Part shown: positions 12,892 to 34,573 of the stretch, in pieces
How positions within the stretch are numbered: the first letter of the stretch is position 1
Layout of the letters: each line of letters begins with the position of its first letter
DNA from: Streptomyces sp. NBC_01244
Lineage (GTDB): Bacteria; Actinomycetota; Actinomycetes; Streptomycetales; Streptomycetaceae
DNA: 64,000 nucleotides
Direction of reading: 5' to 3'
Assembly: GCF_035987325.1 (NCBI RefSeq)
Contig: NZ_CP108488.1
Location: forward strand, 2,790,001 to 2,854,000
Notes under the pieces: model-generated
The model's input: the letters and a program-made list of their open reading frames with translations, nothing else
Databases searched by the model: none
Told to the model about the DNA's origin: nothing
Made by a program: the position numbers and the translations under genes

Positions 12892-14325
12892 TCAGTTCAC
12901 CCGGCCCGGGGCCGCGAACGTCAGCCGGAACATCGCGCCCCCGCCCGGGGCGGCCTCGGCCGCCAGCCGCGCCTCGTGCGCCCGCGCGATCTGCCGGGCC
13001 ATCGCCAGCCCGAGCCCCGACCCGGGCAGCGCCCGCGCCGCCCCCGCCCGGTAGAACCGGTCGAAGACGTACGGCAGATCCGCCTCCGAGATCCCCGGCC
13101 CGTGATCCCGTACGGTCACCTCCGCGCGACCGTCCCCCCGAACCGTCAGCGCCACCTCCACCTCCGCCCCCGGCGGGCTGAACTTCGCCGCGTTGTCCAG
13201 CAGGTTCCCCAGCAACCTGCTGAGCCGCGCCGGTACCCCCGCCACCACCGCCTCCCCCTCCCCACGGGACGGCGACGGCGACGGCGCCCGCACCCGGAAG
13301 GCCACGCCCGGCCAGTGCGCCCGCGCGGCCCCCACGCAGTACTCCACCAGCGGAACCAGCCGCACCTGTTCCACCAGCAGCTGCGGCTCCTCGTCGCGGG
13401 CCAGCTCGATCAGGTCGTTGACCAGCCCCGTCACCTCCCGCAACTGCCGACCGAGCGCCAGCGAGGCCCGCTCCCGCTGCTCGGCCGTCAGCCGGTCCCC
13501 CCGCGCCAGCAGCTCCGCGTTCGTCCGCAGCGCGGTCAGCGGGGTCCGCAGCTCGTGCGAGGCGTCCGCGACGAGCCTGCGCTGCGCGGTGACGGACTGT
13601 TCCAGTTCGCCCAGCATGGTGTTGAAGCTCCCGGCGAGCCGGGTGACCTCGTCCTCGCGGCCGCGGCCCGGAGGCGGCAGTTCGATCCGGTGCCTCGGAT
13701 CCCGGGTGGCGGCGATCCGCTCGGCGGTGGCCGTGAGCCGGGTGACCGGTGCCAGACCCGTCCGCGCGACCCAGTGGCCGAGCAGCGCGGCCAGCAGCAC
13801 CCCGGCGGCGGCGGTGACGGCGAGCCGCCGGGCGGCCCGGTCGATGCCGGTCTCCACCGAGTCGGAGCGTACGGCGACCTGGAGGGCCCGGTCCTTGAGG
13901 AAGTCGGTGGTGAGCATCCGCGCGGGATGCCCCTCGACGACGATGTCCGTGTAGAAGGGGGCCCGCTCCCGCACGGCCACCAGCCGGGTGGCCGAGGCCA
14001 CGGGCATCCGGTACGCGCCCTCCCCGCCCCCCGGGTCCTTCCGCGGGTCGGCCGGGACGATCTGGACGCAGGCGGGCGCGGCCAGGTACCGGCAGTCCCA
14101 GGCCGCGGTCCCGGGCGGGGAGTCGCCGTACTGCTTCGCGGCGAGCCGGGCGGCCTGGTTCAGGCTCAGGTCGAGCTGCTGGTAGAGCGCGGCCCGCCCC
14201 TCCAGGAAGGCGGCGGTGCACACGCCGAGGGCCACGAAGGCCACCGCGGCGGTCACGGCCAGCGCCAGCCGGGTGCGCAGCGGCCGCCTGCGCCGCCACC
14301 GCGCGCCGAGCCCCCGCCGGCTCAC
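12892..14325 (-). CDS. two-component sensor histidine kinase
   Basis: Membrane histidine kinase of 477 residues. Seen: an Arg-rich start, TM1 (about 16-38), an extracytoplasmic sensor region (about 40-155) with a Cys pair (WDCRYLAAPACVQ), TM2 (about 165-185), HAMP, and the HisKA H-box ADASHELRTPL (phospho-His H257). The ATPase domain has N-box NLLDNAAKF, G1 DHGPGI and G2 GSGLGLAMA. The GTG start overlaps the response-regulator stop as GTGA (14322-14325), so the pair is translationally coupled. The signal is unknown; the divergent cell-wall-type genes suggest an envelope cue. Confidence 0.93.
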   Translation of the reverse strand: MSRRGLGARWRRRRPLRTRLALAVTAAVAFVALGVCTAAFLEGRAALYQQLDLSLNQAARLAAKQYGDSPPGTAAWDCRYLAAPACVQIVPADPRKDPGGGEGAYRMPVASATRLVAVRERAPFYTDIVVEGHPARMLTTDFLKDRALQVAVRSDSVETGIDRAARRLAVTAAAGVLLAALLGHWVARTGLAPVTRLTATAERIAATRDPRHRIELPPPGRGREDEVTRLAGSFNTMLGELEQSVTAQRRLVADASHELRTPLTALRTNAELLARGDRLTAEQRERASLALGRQLREVTGLVNDLIELARDEEPQLLVEQVRLVPLVEYCVGAARAHWPGVAFRVRAPSPSPSRGEGEAVVAGVPARLSRLLGNLLDNAAKFSPPGAEVEVALTVRGDGRAEVTVRDHGPGISEADLPYVFDRFYRAGAARALPGSGLGLAMARQIARAHEARLAAEAAPGGGAMFRLTFAAPGRVN

Positions 14326-15005
14326 GCGGCGTCCAGTCGGTAGCCGACCCCGTGCACGGTGTGCACCAGCCGGGGCTCGCCGCCGGCCTCCAGCTTGCGG
14401 CGCAGGTATCCGACGTAGACGGCCAGGGAGTTGGAGTCCGGCCCGAAGTCCCGGCCCCACACCAGTTCCAGGATCAGCTCGCGCGGCAGCACCTGGCCGG
14501 GGTGGCGCAGGAGGAGTTCGAGCAGCGCCGACTCGGTGCGGCTGAACTCCAGCGGCCGCTCGCCGCGCCGCCCGGTGCGGGTGGCGGGGTCGAGGACGAG
14601 GTCCCCGTACGCGAGCACGGGCGCGCCCCCGGCCGGTTCGGGGGCGGCCCGCCGCAGGAGGGCCCGTACCCGGGCCACGAGCTCGTCGAGCGCGAACGGT
14701 TTGACCAGGTAGTCGTCGGCGCCCGCCTCCAGCCCGTCGACGCGGTCGCTCACCGCGTCCAGGGCCGTGAGGACGAGGACGGGCGTACGGTCGCCCACCG
14801 CGCGCAGTTGCCGGCACACGGCGAGCCCGTCCAGCACCGGCATCATCACGTCGAGGACCACCGCGTCCGGCTGCCAGAGCGCCACCTCGGACAGTGCCGC
14901 CAGCCCGTCGGCCGCGCCGCGCACCTCGTACCCCTCGACGGCGAGGCCGTCTTCGACGGCGGCCCGCACCTCGGGCTCGTCGTCCACCACCAGAATCCGC
15001 TGCAT
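14322..15005 (-). CDS. OmpR-family response regulator
   Basis: DNA-binding response regulator of 227 residues. Seen: the receiver domain MQRILVVDDEPEV with phospho-acceptor D52 (LDVMMPVLDG), the conserved Thr/Lys region (VLVLTALD, DYLVKPFALDELVAR), and a C-terminal winged helix (RTESALLELLLRHPG, DSNSLAVYVGYLRRKLE, VHGVGYRLDAA). The ATG at 15005 is preceded by GGGAGG about nine bases upstream; a longer start at 15062 is unlikely. It is transcribed with the kinase and divergently from the MurG-like gene. Direct repeats in the 72-bp divergent gap are candidate binding sites. Confidence 0.94.
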   Translation of the reverse strand: MQRILVVDDEPEVRAAVEDGLAVEGYEVRGAADGLAALSEVALWQPDAVVLDVMMPVLDGLAVCRQLRAVGDRTPVLVLTALDAVSDRVDGLEAGADDYLVKPFALDELVARVRALLRRAAPEPAGGAPVLAYGDLVLDPATRTGRRGERPLEFSRTESALLELLLRHPGQVLPRELILELVWGRDFGPDSNSLAVYVGYLRRKLEAGGEPRLVHTVHGVGYRLDAA

Positions 15006-15032
15006 GCGGCAAAGCCTCCCAAATACTCCGGG

Positions 15033-15055
15033 AGAACCTCTTAGAACCTTCTTAG
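15033..15055. promoter_or_regulatory. direct repeats AGAACCT(T)CTTAG, candidate response-regulator site
   Basis: AGAACCTCTTAG at 15033-15044 is followed by AGAACCTTCTTAG at 15043-15055, with the AGAACCT starts exactly ten bases apart. OmpR/PhoB-type regulators bind tandem direct repeats of one helical turn. The element lies 28 bases from one start codon and 22 from the other, so it could control both directions. Confidence 0.5.
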
Positions 15056-15077
15056 GGCGCACCGGAAGTCTGCGTCC

Positions 15078-16292
15078 ATGACCTCCTCACCCTCACGCTC
15101 CGCCTCGCCCCGGTCCTCGTACCGGCCGCTGTCCGTCGTGATCGGCGCGGGCGGCACCGGCGGCCACATCTATCCCGGCCTCGCCCTGGCGGAGGCGCTG
15201 CGTGCCGCCGTCCCGGACGCCGTGGTCTCGTTCATCGGCACCGAACGCGGTCTGGAGACCGAGCTGATCCCGGCCGCCGGCTACCGCCTGCACACCGTGG
15301 ACATGATCCCCTTCGACCCGGCGCTGGGCGCCAAGCGCTACCTCCTTCCGGCGGCGCTGCTGCGCTCGGCCGGGCAGGCGCGGGCCGTGATCCGGGCGCA
15401 GGGCGCGCAGGTGGCCGTCGGCATGGGCGGCTATCCGAGTGCGCCCGCCGTGCTCGGGGCCCGGCTGGCCGGACTGCCCGCGGTCATCCACGAGTCCAAT
15501 GCGGTACCGGGCCGGGCCAACCAGTTCGCGGCCCGCCTCACCCCGCACATGGCGGTGGCCTTCGACCGCAGCCGGGAGCACCTGGCGGGCGGGGCGCGGG
15601 CACTGACCACCGGAATGCCCATCTCCGCGGCACTGTCGGGCCTCGCCCGACTGTCCCGCCCCGAGCGGGCGGCCTGGCGCGCCGGGGCCCGGCGGGAGCT
15701 GGGGGTGCCGGACGGGCGGCGGCTGGTGGTGTTCAACGGCGGCAGCCTGGGCGCCGTACGCCTGACCGCGGCCGCGGCCGGGCTGGCGGCCGCCTGGCAG
15801 GCCCGTGACGACGTACAGCTGCTGATCAAGACCGGCCCGGCGGCGCTCGCGGACACCGCGGCCGGGCTGTCCGCCTCGGGCGGCCGGCGGATCGCACGGG
15901 CCGTGCCGTACCTGGACCGGATGGACCTGGTCTACGCGGCCGCCGACCTGGTGGTGTGCCGGGCGGGCTCGGCGACGGTGGCGGAGCTCGCGGCGACCGG
16001 GGTCCCCTCGGTGCTGGTCCCCTACCCGTACGCCCCGGGCGACCACCAGACCCACAACGCCCGGGTGCTGTCCGACGCCGGTGCGGGCCTCCTGCTGGCG
16101 GACGCCGAGGCGACGGCCGGCCGCCTCGCGGACCTGCTCGCCCCGCTGCTGGCCGACCCGGCGCGGCTGGCGGCGATGGCCGGCGCGGCCGACCCGGGAC
16201 CGCACGCACGGGCCGCCGAACTGCTGGCCTCGCAGGTCCTGCGGGTCGCCGGCTTCCCCTCCCTCTCCCCCACCCCCCTGGAGCTCGTATGA
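15078..16292 (+). CDS. MurG-like glycosyltransferase (second copy, GT28)
   Basis: GT-B fold transferase of 404 residues related to MurG, which adds GlcNAc from UDP-GlcNAc to lipid I. Seen: the N-terminal acceptor-side loop GAGGTGGHIYPGLALAEAL, GMGGYPSAPAVLGARLAGLP, HESNAVPGRANQ, and the donor-binding part NGGSLGAVRL, CRAGSATVAELAATGVPS and YPYAPGDHQTHNA. All MurG signature blocks look intact. It is distinct from the dcw murG at 33479-34573, whose corresponding block is [13 protein letters not shown]. Its stop overlaps the next ATG as ATGA. It probably glycosylates a lipid-linked envelope precursor; the exact acceptor is unknown. Confidence 0.85.
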   Translation: MTSSPSRSASPRSSYRPLSVVIGAGGTGGHIYPGLALAEALRAAVPDAVVSFIGTERGLETELIPAAGYRLHTVDMIPFDPALGAKRYLLPAALLRSAGQARAVIRAQGAQVAVGMGGYPSAPAVLGARLAGLPAVIHESNAVPGRANQFAARLTPHMAVAFDRSREHLAGGARALTTGMPISAALSGLARLSRPERAAWRAGARRELGVPDGRRLVVFNGGSLGAVRLTAAAAGLAAAWQARDDVQLLIKTGPAALADTAAGLSASGGRRIARAVPYLDRMDLVYAAADLVVCRAGSATVAELAATGVPSVLVPYPYAPGDHQTHNARVLSDAGAGLLLADAEATAGRLADLLAPLLADPARLAAMAGAADPGPHARAAELLASQVLRVAGFPSLSPTPLELV

Positions 16293-17335
16293 CCACGCAC
16301 GCCCCCACGCCCACACTCGCCCTCACCCCGGCGCGCACCCCCGCCGACTGGACCGGCCGTACGGTCCTCGTCACGGGCGCCGAGGGCTTCATCGGCTCCG
16401 CCCTCGTCGACCTGCTGGTCGCGCGGGGCGCGAAGGTGCGCGCCTTCGTGCACTACAAGCCGTACGCGGAGAAGGGCCACCTGGCCCGCTACCTGGCCGA
16501 CCCGGGCGGCCCGGTGGAGATGTGGGCCGGCGACGTCCGCGACGCGGGCCGGGTCAGCGACGCGGTGGCCGGCTGCGACACCGTCTTTCACCTGGCGGCG
16601 CTGATCGGGATCCCGTACAGCTACGCCTCGCCCGGCGCGTACGTCCAGACCAACGTCACCGGGACCGAGAACATGGCCGAGGCCTGCCGCCGCCACGGCG
16701 TGCGCCGCCTCGTCCACACCTCCACCAGCGAGGTCTACGGGACGGCCCTGACGGCCCCGATCTCCGAGAGCCACCCGCTCCAGCCGCAGTCCCCGTACTC
16801 CGCTTCGAAGATCGGCGCCGACATGATGGCGCTCTCCTTCCACCACGCGTTCGAACTGCCGGTGACGGTGGTCCGGCCGTTCAACACCTACGGCCCGCGC
16901 CAGTCGGCCCGCGCGGTCATCCCCACCATCCTGGCCCAGCTCCACTCGGGCGCCCGGGAGGTCCGCCTGGGCTCCCTGACCCCGACCCGGGACTTCACCT
17001 ACGTGACCGACACCGCGGCCGGCTTCCTCGCGGTCGCGGAGTGCGACCGGGCCCTGGGCCAGGTGGTCAACCTCGGCAGCGGCGAGGAGATCTCCATCGG
17101 CGACCTGGCCCGGGCCCTGATCGCGGCGTCCGGCCGGGACGCGGAGGTCGTCGTCGACCCGGCCCGGCTGCGTCCCTCCGGCAGCGAGGTCCAGCGCCTG
17201 CTGTCGGACAACTCCCGGGCCCGCGACTGGGCCGGCTGGAAGCCCGAGGTCTCCCTCCGGGAGGGCCTGACCCGCACCTCGGAGTGGGTGGCCGCCCACC
17301 TCCACCTCTTCGCCCCGGACCGCTACCAGGTGTAG
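16289..17335 (+). CDS. NAD-dependent nucleotide-sugar 4,6-dehydratase/epimerase (LegB/GMD-like extended SDR)
   Basis: Extended short-chain dehydrogenase of 348 residues. Seen: the Rossmann motif TGAEGFIGS (G30, G33, G36), HLAALIGIPYSY, TSTSEVYG (S147-E148, as in GDP-mannose-type 4,6-dehydratases), YSASK (Y170, K174) and RPFNTYGPRQSARAVIP. The block IPYSYxSP...TNVxGTxN and PFNTYGPRQSARAVIP resembles LegB, the NAD-dependent 4,6-dehydratase of legionaminic-acid and bacillosamine-like pathways. It overlaps the MurG-like gene by four bases and probably supplies or alters that enzyme's sugar donor. The sugar substrate (a UDP- or GDP-HexNAc) is inferred. Confidence 0.85.
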   Translation: MTTHAPTPTLALTPARTPADWTGRTVLVTGAEGFIGSALVDLLVARGAKVRAFVHYKPYAEKGHLARYLADPGGPVEMWAGDVRDAGRVSDAVAGCDTVFHLAALIGIPYSYASPGAYVQTNVTGTENMAEACRRHGVRRLVHTSTSEVYGTALTAPISESHPLQPQSPYSASKIGADMMALSFHHAFELPVTVVRPFNTYGPRQSARAVIPTILAQLHSGAREVRLGSLTPTRDFTYVTDTAAGFLAVAECDRALGQVVNLGSGEEISIGDLARALIAASGRDAEVVVDPARLRPSGSEVQRLLSDNSRARDWAGWKPEVSLREGLTRTSEWVAAHLHLFAPDRYQV

Positions 17336-33478: not shown

Positions 33479-34573
33479 TCAGCGGGCTCTGTTGGCTGCG
33501 ATCGCCTCGTACACCATGCCGACGAGCAGCTCGTCGGCATCCCGCCGGCCGAACTCGGCGGCGGCGCGGGACATCTCGTACAGGCGGTGCGGGTCGGCGA
33601 GGACCGGGAGGACCTGGCTGAGCACCCACTGGGGCGTCAGTTCCGCGTCGTCCACGAGCAGGCCGCCGCCGGCCTTGACCACCGGCTGGGCGTTGAGCCG
33701 CTGTTCGCCGTTGCCGATCGGCAGCGGGACGTAGGCGGCGGGCAGCCCGACGGCGGACAGTTCGGCGACGGTCATCGCGCCCGCGCGGCAGAGCATCATG
33801 TCGGCGGCGGCGTACGCGAGATCCATCCGGTCCACGTACGGTACCGGCACATAAGGCGGCATCCCGGGCATGTTGTCGACACGCGGCAGTTCGTTCTTCG
33901 GGCCGACCGCGTGCAGGATCTGGACCCCGGAGCGCTGGAGGGTCGGCGCGACCTGCTCGATCACCTCATTGAGGCGGCGGGCGCCCTGCGAGCCGCCCGA
34001 GACCAGAAGCGTCGGCAGGTTCGGGTCCAGACCGAAGGCGGCGCGCGCCTCCGGGCGGACCAGTGCCCGGTCGAGGGTGGAGATGGAGCGGCGCAGCGGG
34101 ATGCCCACGTAGCGGGCGCCGCGCAGTTTGCTGTCGGGGGTGGAGACCGCGACGGCGAACGCGTACCGGGAGCCGATCTTGTTGGCCAGTCCGGGCCGCG
34201 CGTTGGCCTCGTGGACGATGATCGGCACCCCGAGGCGCTTGGCCGCGAGGTAGCCGGGCAGGGCCACGTAGCCGCCGAAGCCGACGACGCAGTCGGCCTT
34301 GGTGCGCAGGAGGATCTCCTCCGCGGCCTTGATGGTGCCGCGCAGCCGCCCTGGGACGGTGATCAGCTCGGGCGTGGGCCTACGGGGCAGCGGGACGGCC
34401 GGGATCAGTCCCAGCTCGTAGCCGCGCTCGGGCACCAGGCGGGTTTCGAGTCCGCGTTCAGTGCCGAGGGCGGTGATGCCCACAGAAGGGTCCTGCCTGC
34501 GCAGGGCGTCCGCGAGGGCCAGCGCCGGCTCGATGTGGCCGGCGGTCCCCCCACCGGCGAGTACGACATGCAC
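33479..34573 (-). CDS. murG: MurG, UDP-GlcNAc:lipid I GlcNAc transferase
   Basis: Membrane-associated GT28 transferase of 364 residues that converts lipid I to lipid II. Seen: [68 protein letters not shown], and the donor site [18 protein letters not shown] followed by [17 protein letters not shown]. The GTG at 34573 lies seven bases after the ftsW stop, so it is likely coupled. This is the housekeeping enzyme; a diverged MurG-like copy sits at 15078-16292. Confidence 0.97.

Follow-up and report, generated by a model that had tools for sequence, protein, structure and literature searches.

The stretch of DNA analyzed here, 64,000 nucleotides of Streptomyces sp. NBC_01244 (contig NZ_CP108488.1, positions 2,790,001 to 2,854,000; the window), carries a four-gene module in which a two-component system stands back to back with genes for a second MurG-like GT28 glycosyltransferase and a LegB-like sugar dehydratase. 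An earlier note, made from the sequence alone, had drawn attention to this module and had proposed that, under envelope stress, it could place a modified sugar on lipid I, lipid II or another envelope glycan and perhaps influence antibiotic binding. We followed up this proposal by comparing the module with its relatives in other actinobacteria; loci and genomes carry our own L and G numbers where they need to be told apart.

Organization and conservation of the module

The kinase and regulator genes share a 4-base overlap, and this pair (12892-15005, minus strand) is divergent from a plus-strand pair in which the end of the GT28 gene and the start of the dehydratase gene overlap as ATGA (Table 1). 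The domain set of the two regulatory proteins (receiver and winged-helix; HAMP, HisKA, and HATPase_c) fits the OmpR/EnvZ class. With both GT28 domains and the motifs of the short-chain dehydrogenase/reductases (SDRs) in place, the arrangement described in the earlier note was borne out: a coupled OmpR regulator/kinase pair, direct repeats in a 72-base divergent gap, and a coupled pair consisting of a complete MurG-like enzyme and a 4,6-dehydratase. It was also right in taking this MurG copy to be additional to that of the division and cell wall (dcw) cluster. The housekeeping murG has matches to ftsW, murD, mraY, murE, ftsI, and ftsZ as its neighbors, and its product is 40% identical to the second GT28. 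The closest matches of the window GT28 and LegB are Streptomyces records.

In a sample of 150 Streptomyces genomes, the second GT28 is present in 30 at an identity of at least 66% (the other matches listed reach at most 41%), and the dehydratase, searched for with a threshold of E <= 1e-120, is present in the identical set of 30 genomes. Both genes adjoin on one strand of one contig in all 30, with a spacing that ranges from a 25-base overlap to 118 bases, and the partner of LegB is a GT28 in each of these carriers. A match to the regulator lies divergent from the pair in 30/30, at a distance of 40-161 bases in 29 genomes and of 1.2 kb in one. All four genes are present in each of nine loci inspected (L005-L013; seven Streptomyces, among them Streptomyces lavendulae CCM 3239 as L005, plus one Kitasatospora and 'Actinobacteria bacterium OV450'), and the flanking genes of these loci are of at least three different kinds. 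Arthrobacter sp. GMC3 (L016) shows the same arrangement of four genes, at identities of 41/62/49/36% for GT28/LegB/regulator/kinase, and so does G1028, a genome of the Arthrobacter family. These data demonstrate that the four genes form a real conserved unit, and the co-occurrence for which the earlier note had suggested a search is thereby found. The GT28, LegB, and regulator of 'Actinobacteria bacterium OV450' (L006) are 88-91% identical to those of the window and the flanks are shared; this organism is very likely a Streptomyces.

Surveys with LegB over wider samples returned 21 of 396 genomes of the phylum (E <= 1e-90), with an adjoining GT28 in four of them (three Streptomyces, including that of the window, and G198). 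In the class of G198, 1 of 24 genomes had a match (E <= 1e-118). The class of G151 gave 5 of 395 (E <= 1e-115), with a GT28 adjoining only in G151 itself, and the family of the Arthrobacter genome gave 2 of 245 (E <= 1e-112), both GT28-linked. A search of 72,556 plasmid records with the GT28 yielded only two distant Listeria matches at E <= 1e-30, and hence no sign of plasmid-borne spread. With PADLOC, the regulator and the kinase each had a single weak match while the GT28 and LegB had none, which speaks against a known defence system.

We scanned the whole genome (10.0 Mb) for the box pattern CTCTTAGAACNTTCTTAGG with up to three mismatches and obtained a single match, located in the divergent gap; the reversed pattern, used as a control, had none. 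A single copy of the core motif is present in the window, and nine of the 12 orthologous loci searched contain the motif, those without a match being L012, L016, and L139. The repeat box is a probable binding site of the regulator. Kinase orthologues were compared from L005-L013, L016, the window, and L142 rather than from all 30 genomes. The window kinase possesses a C-X7-C motif (CRYLAAPAC) in a region that is, judged from its sequence, probably extracytoplasmic, and a C-X6/7-C pair is found in the putative sensor region of all ten orthologues from L005-L013 and Arthrobacter L016. The kinase appears interrupted in L008 and L011. For the window regulator, the vanR models score far below their own cut-offs, as do the other models listed with them.

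Regulator orthologues are also found apart from the GT28-LegB pair in eight Streptomyces, and we called genes in about 10 kb around each of these. The regulator orthologue faces a GH101 endo-alpha-N-acetylgalactosaminidase region in two such genomes (L152:5821-9648, GH101 by Pfam; L151:5395-9321, which clusters with its L152 counterpart by BLAST) and an ArsC-family gene in one (L145:5118-5498). A similar repeat box lies in L151 upstream of the gene that faces the regulator.

Table 1. Features of the module in the window and of the related gene trios in other dcw clusters.
Feature	Position	Strand	Basis or context
Sensor histidine kinase	12892-14325	-	Translation; Pfam HAMP, HisKA, HATPase_c, all above cut-off
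OmpR/PhoB-type response regulator	14322-15005	-	Translation; Pfam Response_reg, Trans_reg_C, all above cut-off
Divergent gap, 72 bases	15006-15077		Between regulator and GT28
Putative regulator binding box, direct repeat CTCTTAGAACC/TTCTTAGG, period about 11 bases	15038-15056	.	In the 72-base gap
Second MurG-like GT28 glycosyltransferase	15078-16292	+	Pfam PF03033/PF04101, both domains above cut-off
LegB-like nicotinamide adenine dinucleotide (NAD)-dependent 4,6-dehydratase (extended SDR)	16289-17335	+	TIGR04180 best family; GxxGxxG, TSE, YxxxK
Housekeeping murG	~33509-34573	-	Same window, about 18 kb off, amid dcw genes
GT28-nucleotidyltransferase-LegB trio	L122:7128-10268; L014:7989-11140; L015:1513-4755		Within dcw clusters

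The GT28 clade and its place in the dcw cluster

The three best solved-structure matches of the window GT28 are MurGs. In a tree of 93 GT28 sequences, all 17 that are linked to LegB, including the dcw-embedded members, form a single clade (support 100/99). This clade groups with actinobacterial MurGs, outside the housekeeping group of Streptomyces, Kitasatospora, Arthrobacter, Micromonosporaceae, and Glycomyces; within it, the three dcw GT28s do not firmly form a group of their own (77/50). No LegB match (E <= 1e-8) was detected beside any of the 68 other GT28 loci (L017-L084; flanks of differing length). Among the loci examined, the linkage with LegB is confined to one GT28 clade (17/17 vs 0/68), which argues for the interpretation given below, in which the two enzymes work together. 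Kitasatospora G153 carries in addition a third, divergent MurG-like gene on a long branch (L141:9152-10366), and the 4 kb covered by L090 contain no match to LegB; among the open reading frames (ORFs) of L141, no van-type genes were recognized by eye.

Members of this clade hold the place of murG in three dcw clusters, each time in a trio with a nucleotidyltransferase and LegB. The gene order is ftsI-murE-murF-mraY-murD-ftsW-GT28-nucleotidyltransferase-LegB-murC-ftsQ-ftsZ in a Frankiaceae metagenome-assembled genome (MAG; L014, genome G150) and ftsI-murE-mraY-murD-ftsW-GT28-nucleotidyltransferase-LegB-murC-murB-ftsQ-ftsZ in G198 (L122), which belongs to another class of the phylum. In an Acidimicrobiales MAG (L015/G151), ftsW and murC flank the trio, which has the opposite orientation to both. 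Curated models confirm murE, mraY, murD, ftsW, murC, and ftsZ in L014 and G198, murF in L014, murB in G198, and ftsW, murD, and murC in L015. For the ftsI-type gene of G198, the scores against penicillin-binding protein models stay under the respective cut-offs, and both ftsQ genes and the ftsI of L014 were labelled by eye. When the genomes were searched with the MurG model, G150 and G151 gave one match each and G198 gave a 30-bit fragment in addition to one full match; in all three, the sole full match is the dcw GT28 of the LegB-linked clade. That of G198 scores 280.8 bits against TIGR01133 (MurG), over the curated cut-off.

The history of the G198 cluster can be judged against G154 and G222, two comparison genomes that share its family code. 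FtsI, MurE, MraY, MurD, FtsW, MurC, MurB, and FtsQ of G198 are 47-80% identical to their G154/G222 counterparts, and FtsZ is 83% identical to that of G154 (no FtsZ match exists on the short G222 contig). The GT28 of G198 is 38-40% identical to the MurGs of G154/G222, 50-51% identical to the trio GT28s of G151/L014, and 47% identical to the second GT28 of the window. Both G154 and G222 have MurG directly between FtsW and MurC, and their dcw stretches contain no match to the nucleotidyltransferase or to LegB. A constraint that unites the G198 GT28 with the G154/G222 MurGs was rejected by the approximately unbiased (AU) test (p = 0.006; 25 sequences); the constrained group corresponds to the taxonomic expectation and was named after the first tree was known. 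The simplest reading of these sequence relationships is that the native murG of G198 was displaced, within an essential operon, by a foreign three-gene cassette. Read in this way, the replacement amounts to a natural complementation experiment. Because GT28s of this clade occupy the murG position in dcw clusters elsewhere among the actinobacteria, the window GT28 very probably does the job of MurG, and we strongly infer that it has MurG-type activity.

We compared residues between the 17 clade members and 75 other GT28s, with one long-branched row dropped and in Escherichia coli MurG numbering. The numbering of donor contacts follows the partial text of PubMed Central (PMC) article PMC10966019, and the partial text of PMC8256705 assigns the HEQN loop of MurG to the lipid I acceptor. 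A lack of donor-site residues would, according to the earlier note, have counted against its proposal; the equivalents of E269, S192, T266, Q289, and N292 are kept in the window protein (E303, S223, T300, Q324, and N327), and they are conserved in 17/17 clade members with the exception of T266 (15/17). The R164 position reads S183 in the window and is R in 4/17 of the clade vs 51/75 of the others; at the Q288 position the window has H323, the same residue as 63/75 others. The acceptor loop HEQN reads HESN in the window, with S at the Q127 position in 16/17 of the clade vs Q in 62/75 others, and N128 is retained in 14/17 vs 75/75, the three dcw members having G instead (HESG in L014 and L122, HEPG in L015). 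The Asn that follows the GGS loop (position 230) is T in 15/17 of the clade and N in 72/75 of the others. P78 (mostly G in the others), K251, and A/G at the L265 position are each found in 17/17; many ordinary MurGs likewise have a small residue at the L265 position, which is therefore a poor guide to the donor. This pattern fits a MurG-type enzyme with changed substrate loops, and it is no proof of a new donor.

The LegB-like dehydratase and the nucleotidyltransferase

The LegB identity suggested in the earlier note stands in part. TIGR04180 (LegB, a hypothetical equivalog) is by far the best family for the window dehydratase (437.2 bits, the next family reaching 168.9 bits), and the curated cut-off of 475 is missed, which leaves the protein LegB-like; the dehydratase of L014, with 441.8 bits, is likewise below 475. 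The SDR motifs GxxGxxG, TSE, and YxxxK are present in the window protein, as is the whole motif set in 38/38 LegB-type rows. The 17 GT28-linked LegBs and four lone LegBs of the class of G151 constitute one clade (99/97; one duplicate row dropped), outside which the other 17 actinobacterial LegB rows fall. Of the four lone-LegB loci (L134, L135, L136, and L137, with L104 duplicating the L136 stretch), three have a nucleotidyltransferase-like match no more than about 1.5 kb away. Streptomyces also possesses another, distinct type of LegB (L115, L116, L118, L120, and L121), which adjoins a nucleotidyltransferase-like match at all five loci and is perhaps part of another surface-sugar cluster.

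In the dcw type, LegB is preceded by a CBS-domain nucleotidyltransferase whose best solved-structure match is the beta subunit of mannose-1-phosphate guanyltransferase. This guanyltransferase-like protein and the A/G at the L265 position of the GT28 would allow a donor linked to guanosine diphosphate (GDP) in the dcw type. According to the partial texts of the respective articles, Campylobacter jejuni LegB acts on GDP-N-acetylglucosamine (GDP-GlcNAc) (PMC7439481), and the nucleotidyltransferase PtmE sits in a legionaminic acid cluster (PMC4481668). The cassette of the window lacks a nucleotidyltransferase gene, and matches in its own genome span the catalytic domain only, at 29-33% identity. 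We recognized no nonulosonic acid genes by eye in the ORFs around L014-L016 and L122, with no search for LegC, LegI, and LegF made there or elsewhere in the genome.

A proposed alternative route to lipid II and competing explanations

We interpret the module as an alternative, inducible synthase of lipid II to which the partner dehydratase supplies a modified N-acetylhexosamine (HexNAc) donor, and we put the chances of this interpretation at slightly below even. The two-component system would sense an extracytoplasmic signal, upon which the regulator would bind the repeat box in the divergent gap and turn on the two-gene operon. As a second MurG, the GT28 would add the second sugar to lipid I, and the LegB-like dehydratase would make a 4-keto-6-deoxy-HexNAc nucleotide sugar. 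The GT28 would use this product either as it is or after a further step, in which an enzyme encoded elsewhere has perhaps reduced or aminated it, and the second sugar of the resulting lipid II would differ from the usual one. We infer three elements of this scheme: the signal, the use of the dehydratase product by the GT28, and the nature of the final sugar. The proposal of the earlier note of a modified sugar on lipid I or II gains partial support from the conserved unit, from the presence of the clade in the murG slot of the dcw cluster (probably pointing to lipid II), and from a box that is found only in the divergent gap, while the altered sugar as such, envelope stress as the signal, and an effect on antibiotic binding are presumed. 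A more far-reaching version, which we deem somewhat unlikely, is that peptidoglycan with a second sugar other than GlcNAc is made. Streptomyces and Arthrobacter would then switch on signal to lipid II with a 6-deoxy (4-keto, 4-reduced, or 4-amino) HexNAc, and in lineages such as G198, in which the cassette replaced murG, this sugar would be standing wall chemistry. If kept in its 4-keto form, it would cap chains and serve as a regulated terminator.

Several observations weigh against a lipid II with an altered sugar. The main gap is that the cassette has no C4 reductase or aminotransferase. Peptidoglycan polymerises via O4 of the second sugar, so that a 4-keto sugar could only cap and not be polymerised. 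The window GT28 reaches 240.2 bits against TIGR01133, under the curated cut-off of 250.25, just as the dehydratase misses that of TIGR04180. The unchanged Q289 and N292 equivalents in 17/17 clade members also fit plain uridine diphosphate (UDP)-GlcNAc, and the loss of N128 and of the GGS-loop Asn in some clade members may reflect altered substrates or an altered function. Moreover, the regulator is not exclusive to the module: the eight pair-less Streptomyces mentioned above possess it at 73-80% identity, so that the pair goes with the regulator and not the reverse. In four other genomes of the class of G151, the DNA within about 1.5 kb on each side of a close LegB contains no match to the GT28. 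As for the dcw clusters, G198 is rated 100% complete and the other two cases (L014 and L015) are MAGs; G210, rated 93% complete, shows no full MurG match, and such an absence can therefore be an assembly gap.

The strongest alternative, in our estimate an unlikely one, is a back-up MurG that takes over from an inhibited or limiting main MurG and uses UDP-GlcNAc to produce ordinary lipid II, with the sugar of the dehydratase destined for another co-regulated envelope glycan. The main donor residues of MurG are kept, the status of sole MurG in G198, G150, and G151 needs just normal MurG activity, and no C4-processing step has to be assumed; murG-like genes are, furthermore, often co-located with actinobacterial vanHAX clusters, in a role given as unknown in the partial text of PMC8698665. 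A mere back-up leaves it unexplained, however, why among the GT28 loci examined only one clade is linked with one LegB clade, across Streptomycetaceae, Arthrobacter, and three dcw loci, and why LegB and the nucleotidyltransferase came along with the GT28 into the dcw cluster of G198. The S in the HEQN loop, the P at position 78, and the T at Asn 230, together with the long branch to the Arthrobacter pair, could also point to a role outside peptidoglycan in Streptomyces and Arthrobacter, in which the GT28 glycosylates another lipid-linked precursor (a wall-polymer primer or a glycolipid) with the dehydratase-derived sugar. We consider this improbable, since the acceptor loop is altered as well in the dcw members that appear to be sole MurGs, and its change consequently does not exclude MurG function; in addition, the scanned flanks of L010 (coenzyme A mutase, thioredoxin/TPR protein, DUF6230, TetR regulator, and one protein without a Pfam match) contain no glycan genes.

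Moenomycin biosynthesis likewise pairs a MurG-like GT28 with an extended SDR (MoeGT5/MoeE5), and MoeE5 (6kv9) is among the solved-structure matches of the dehydratase. A natural-product pathway of this type is nevertheless very improbable for the module. MoeE5 uses a UDP-uronic acid and belongs to secondary metabolism, whereas no such cluster was seen here; the flanks differ among the loci (shared by the window, L005, and L006; by L007, L009, L010, L011, and L013; different again in L012 and in L016), and the cassette has a dcw location in three genomes.

When the proposed alternative lipid II synthase is set beside described systems, its GT28 resembles MurG (TIGR01133, the GlcNAc transferase that converts lipid I to lipid II) in both GT28 domains, the GGTGGH motif, the GGS loop, the E269/Q289/N292 equivalents, and the murG place in the dcw cluster. 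It differs from MurG in the clade-specific residues listed above and in its distance from the housekeeping copy, as well as in its coupling to a LegB-like gene and, in Streptomyces and Arthrobacter, to a two-component system of its own. The dehydratase shares with LegB of legionaminic acid synthesis the catalytic motifs and, in the dcw version, a preceding nucleotidyltransferase comparable to PtmE; it is set apart by its score below the cut-off, its MurG-like partner, and a clade separate from the other actinobacterial LegBs sampled. The nearest concept is that of the van clusters (vanRS with vanHAX; the vanO type with a murG-like gene), in which a two-component system is likewise combined with an alternative lipid II route. 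Their inducible remodeling of lipid II alters the stem peptide, whereas the partner in the present module is a sugar enzyme and not a peptide ligase. Neither vanH nor a vanA-type ligase nor vanX was found among the family matches of the four module proteins or by eye in the neighboring ORFs, with no dedicated van search made. Among the open-licence PMC papers listed by our searches, none links MurG with LegB or describes such a second Streptomyces MurG, in agreement with the earlier note, which knew of no described system of this kind.

To our knowledge, the backbone of N-acetylmuramic acid (MurNAc) and GlcNAc is regarded as a near universal property of peptidoglycan. A regulated second MurG that is accompanied by a sugar dehydratase, and that in one lineage or more has seemingly displaced murG, makes the idea that bacteria swap a backbone sugar directly testable. 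If true, such a swap would represent a new kind of system and would matter for how the wall is recognized by phages, by lysozyme-like enzymes, and by antibiotics that bind lipid II. Should the sugar turn out to be the ordinary one, these genes would offer a natural MurG replacement for the study of this enzyme.

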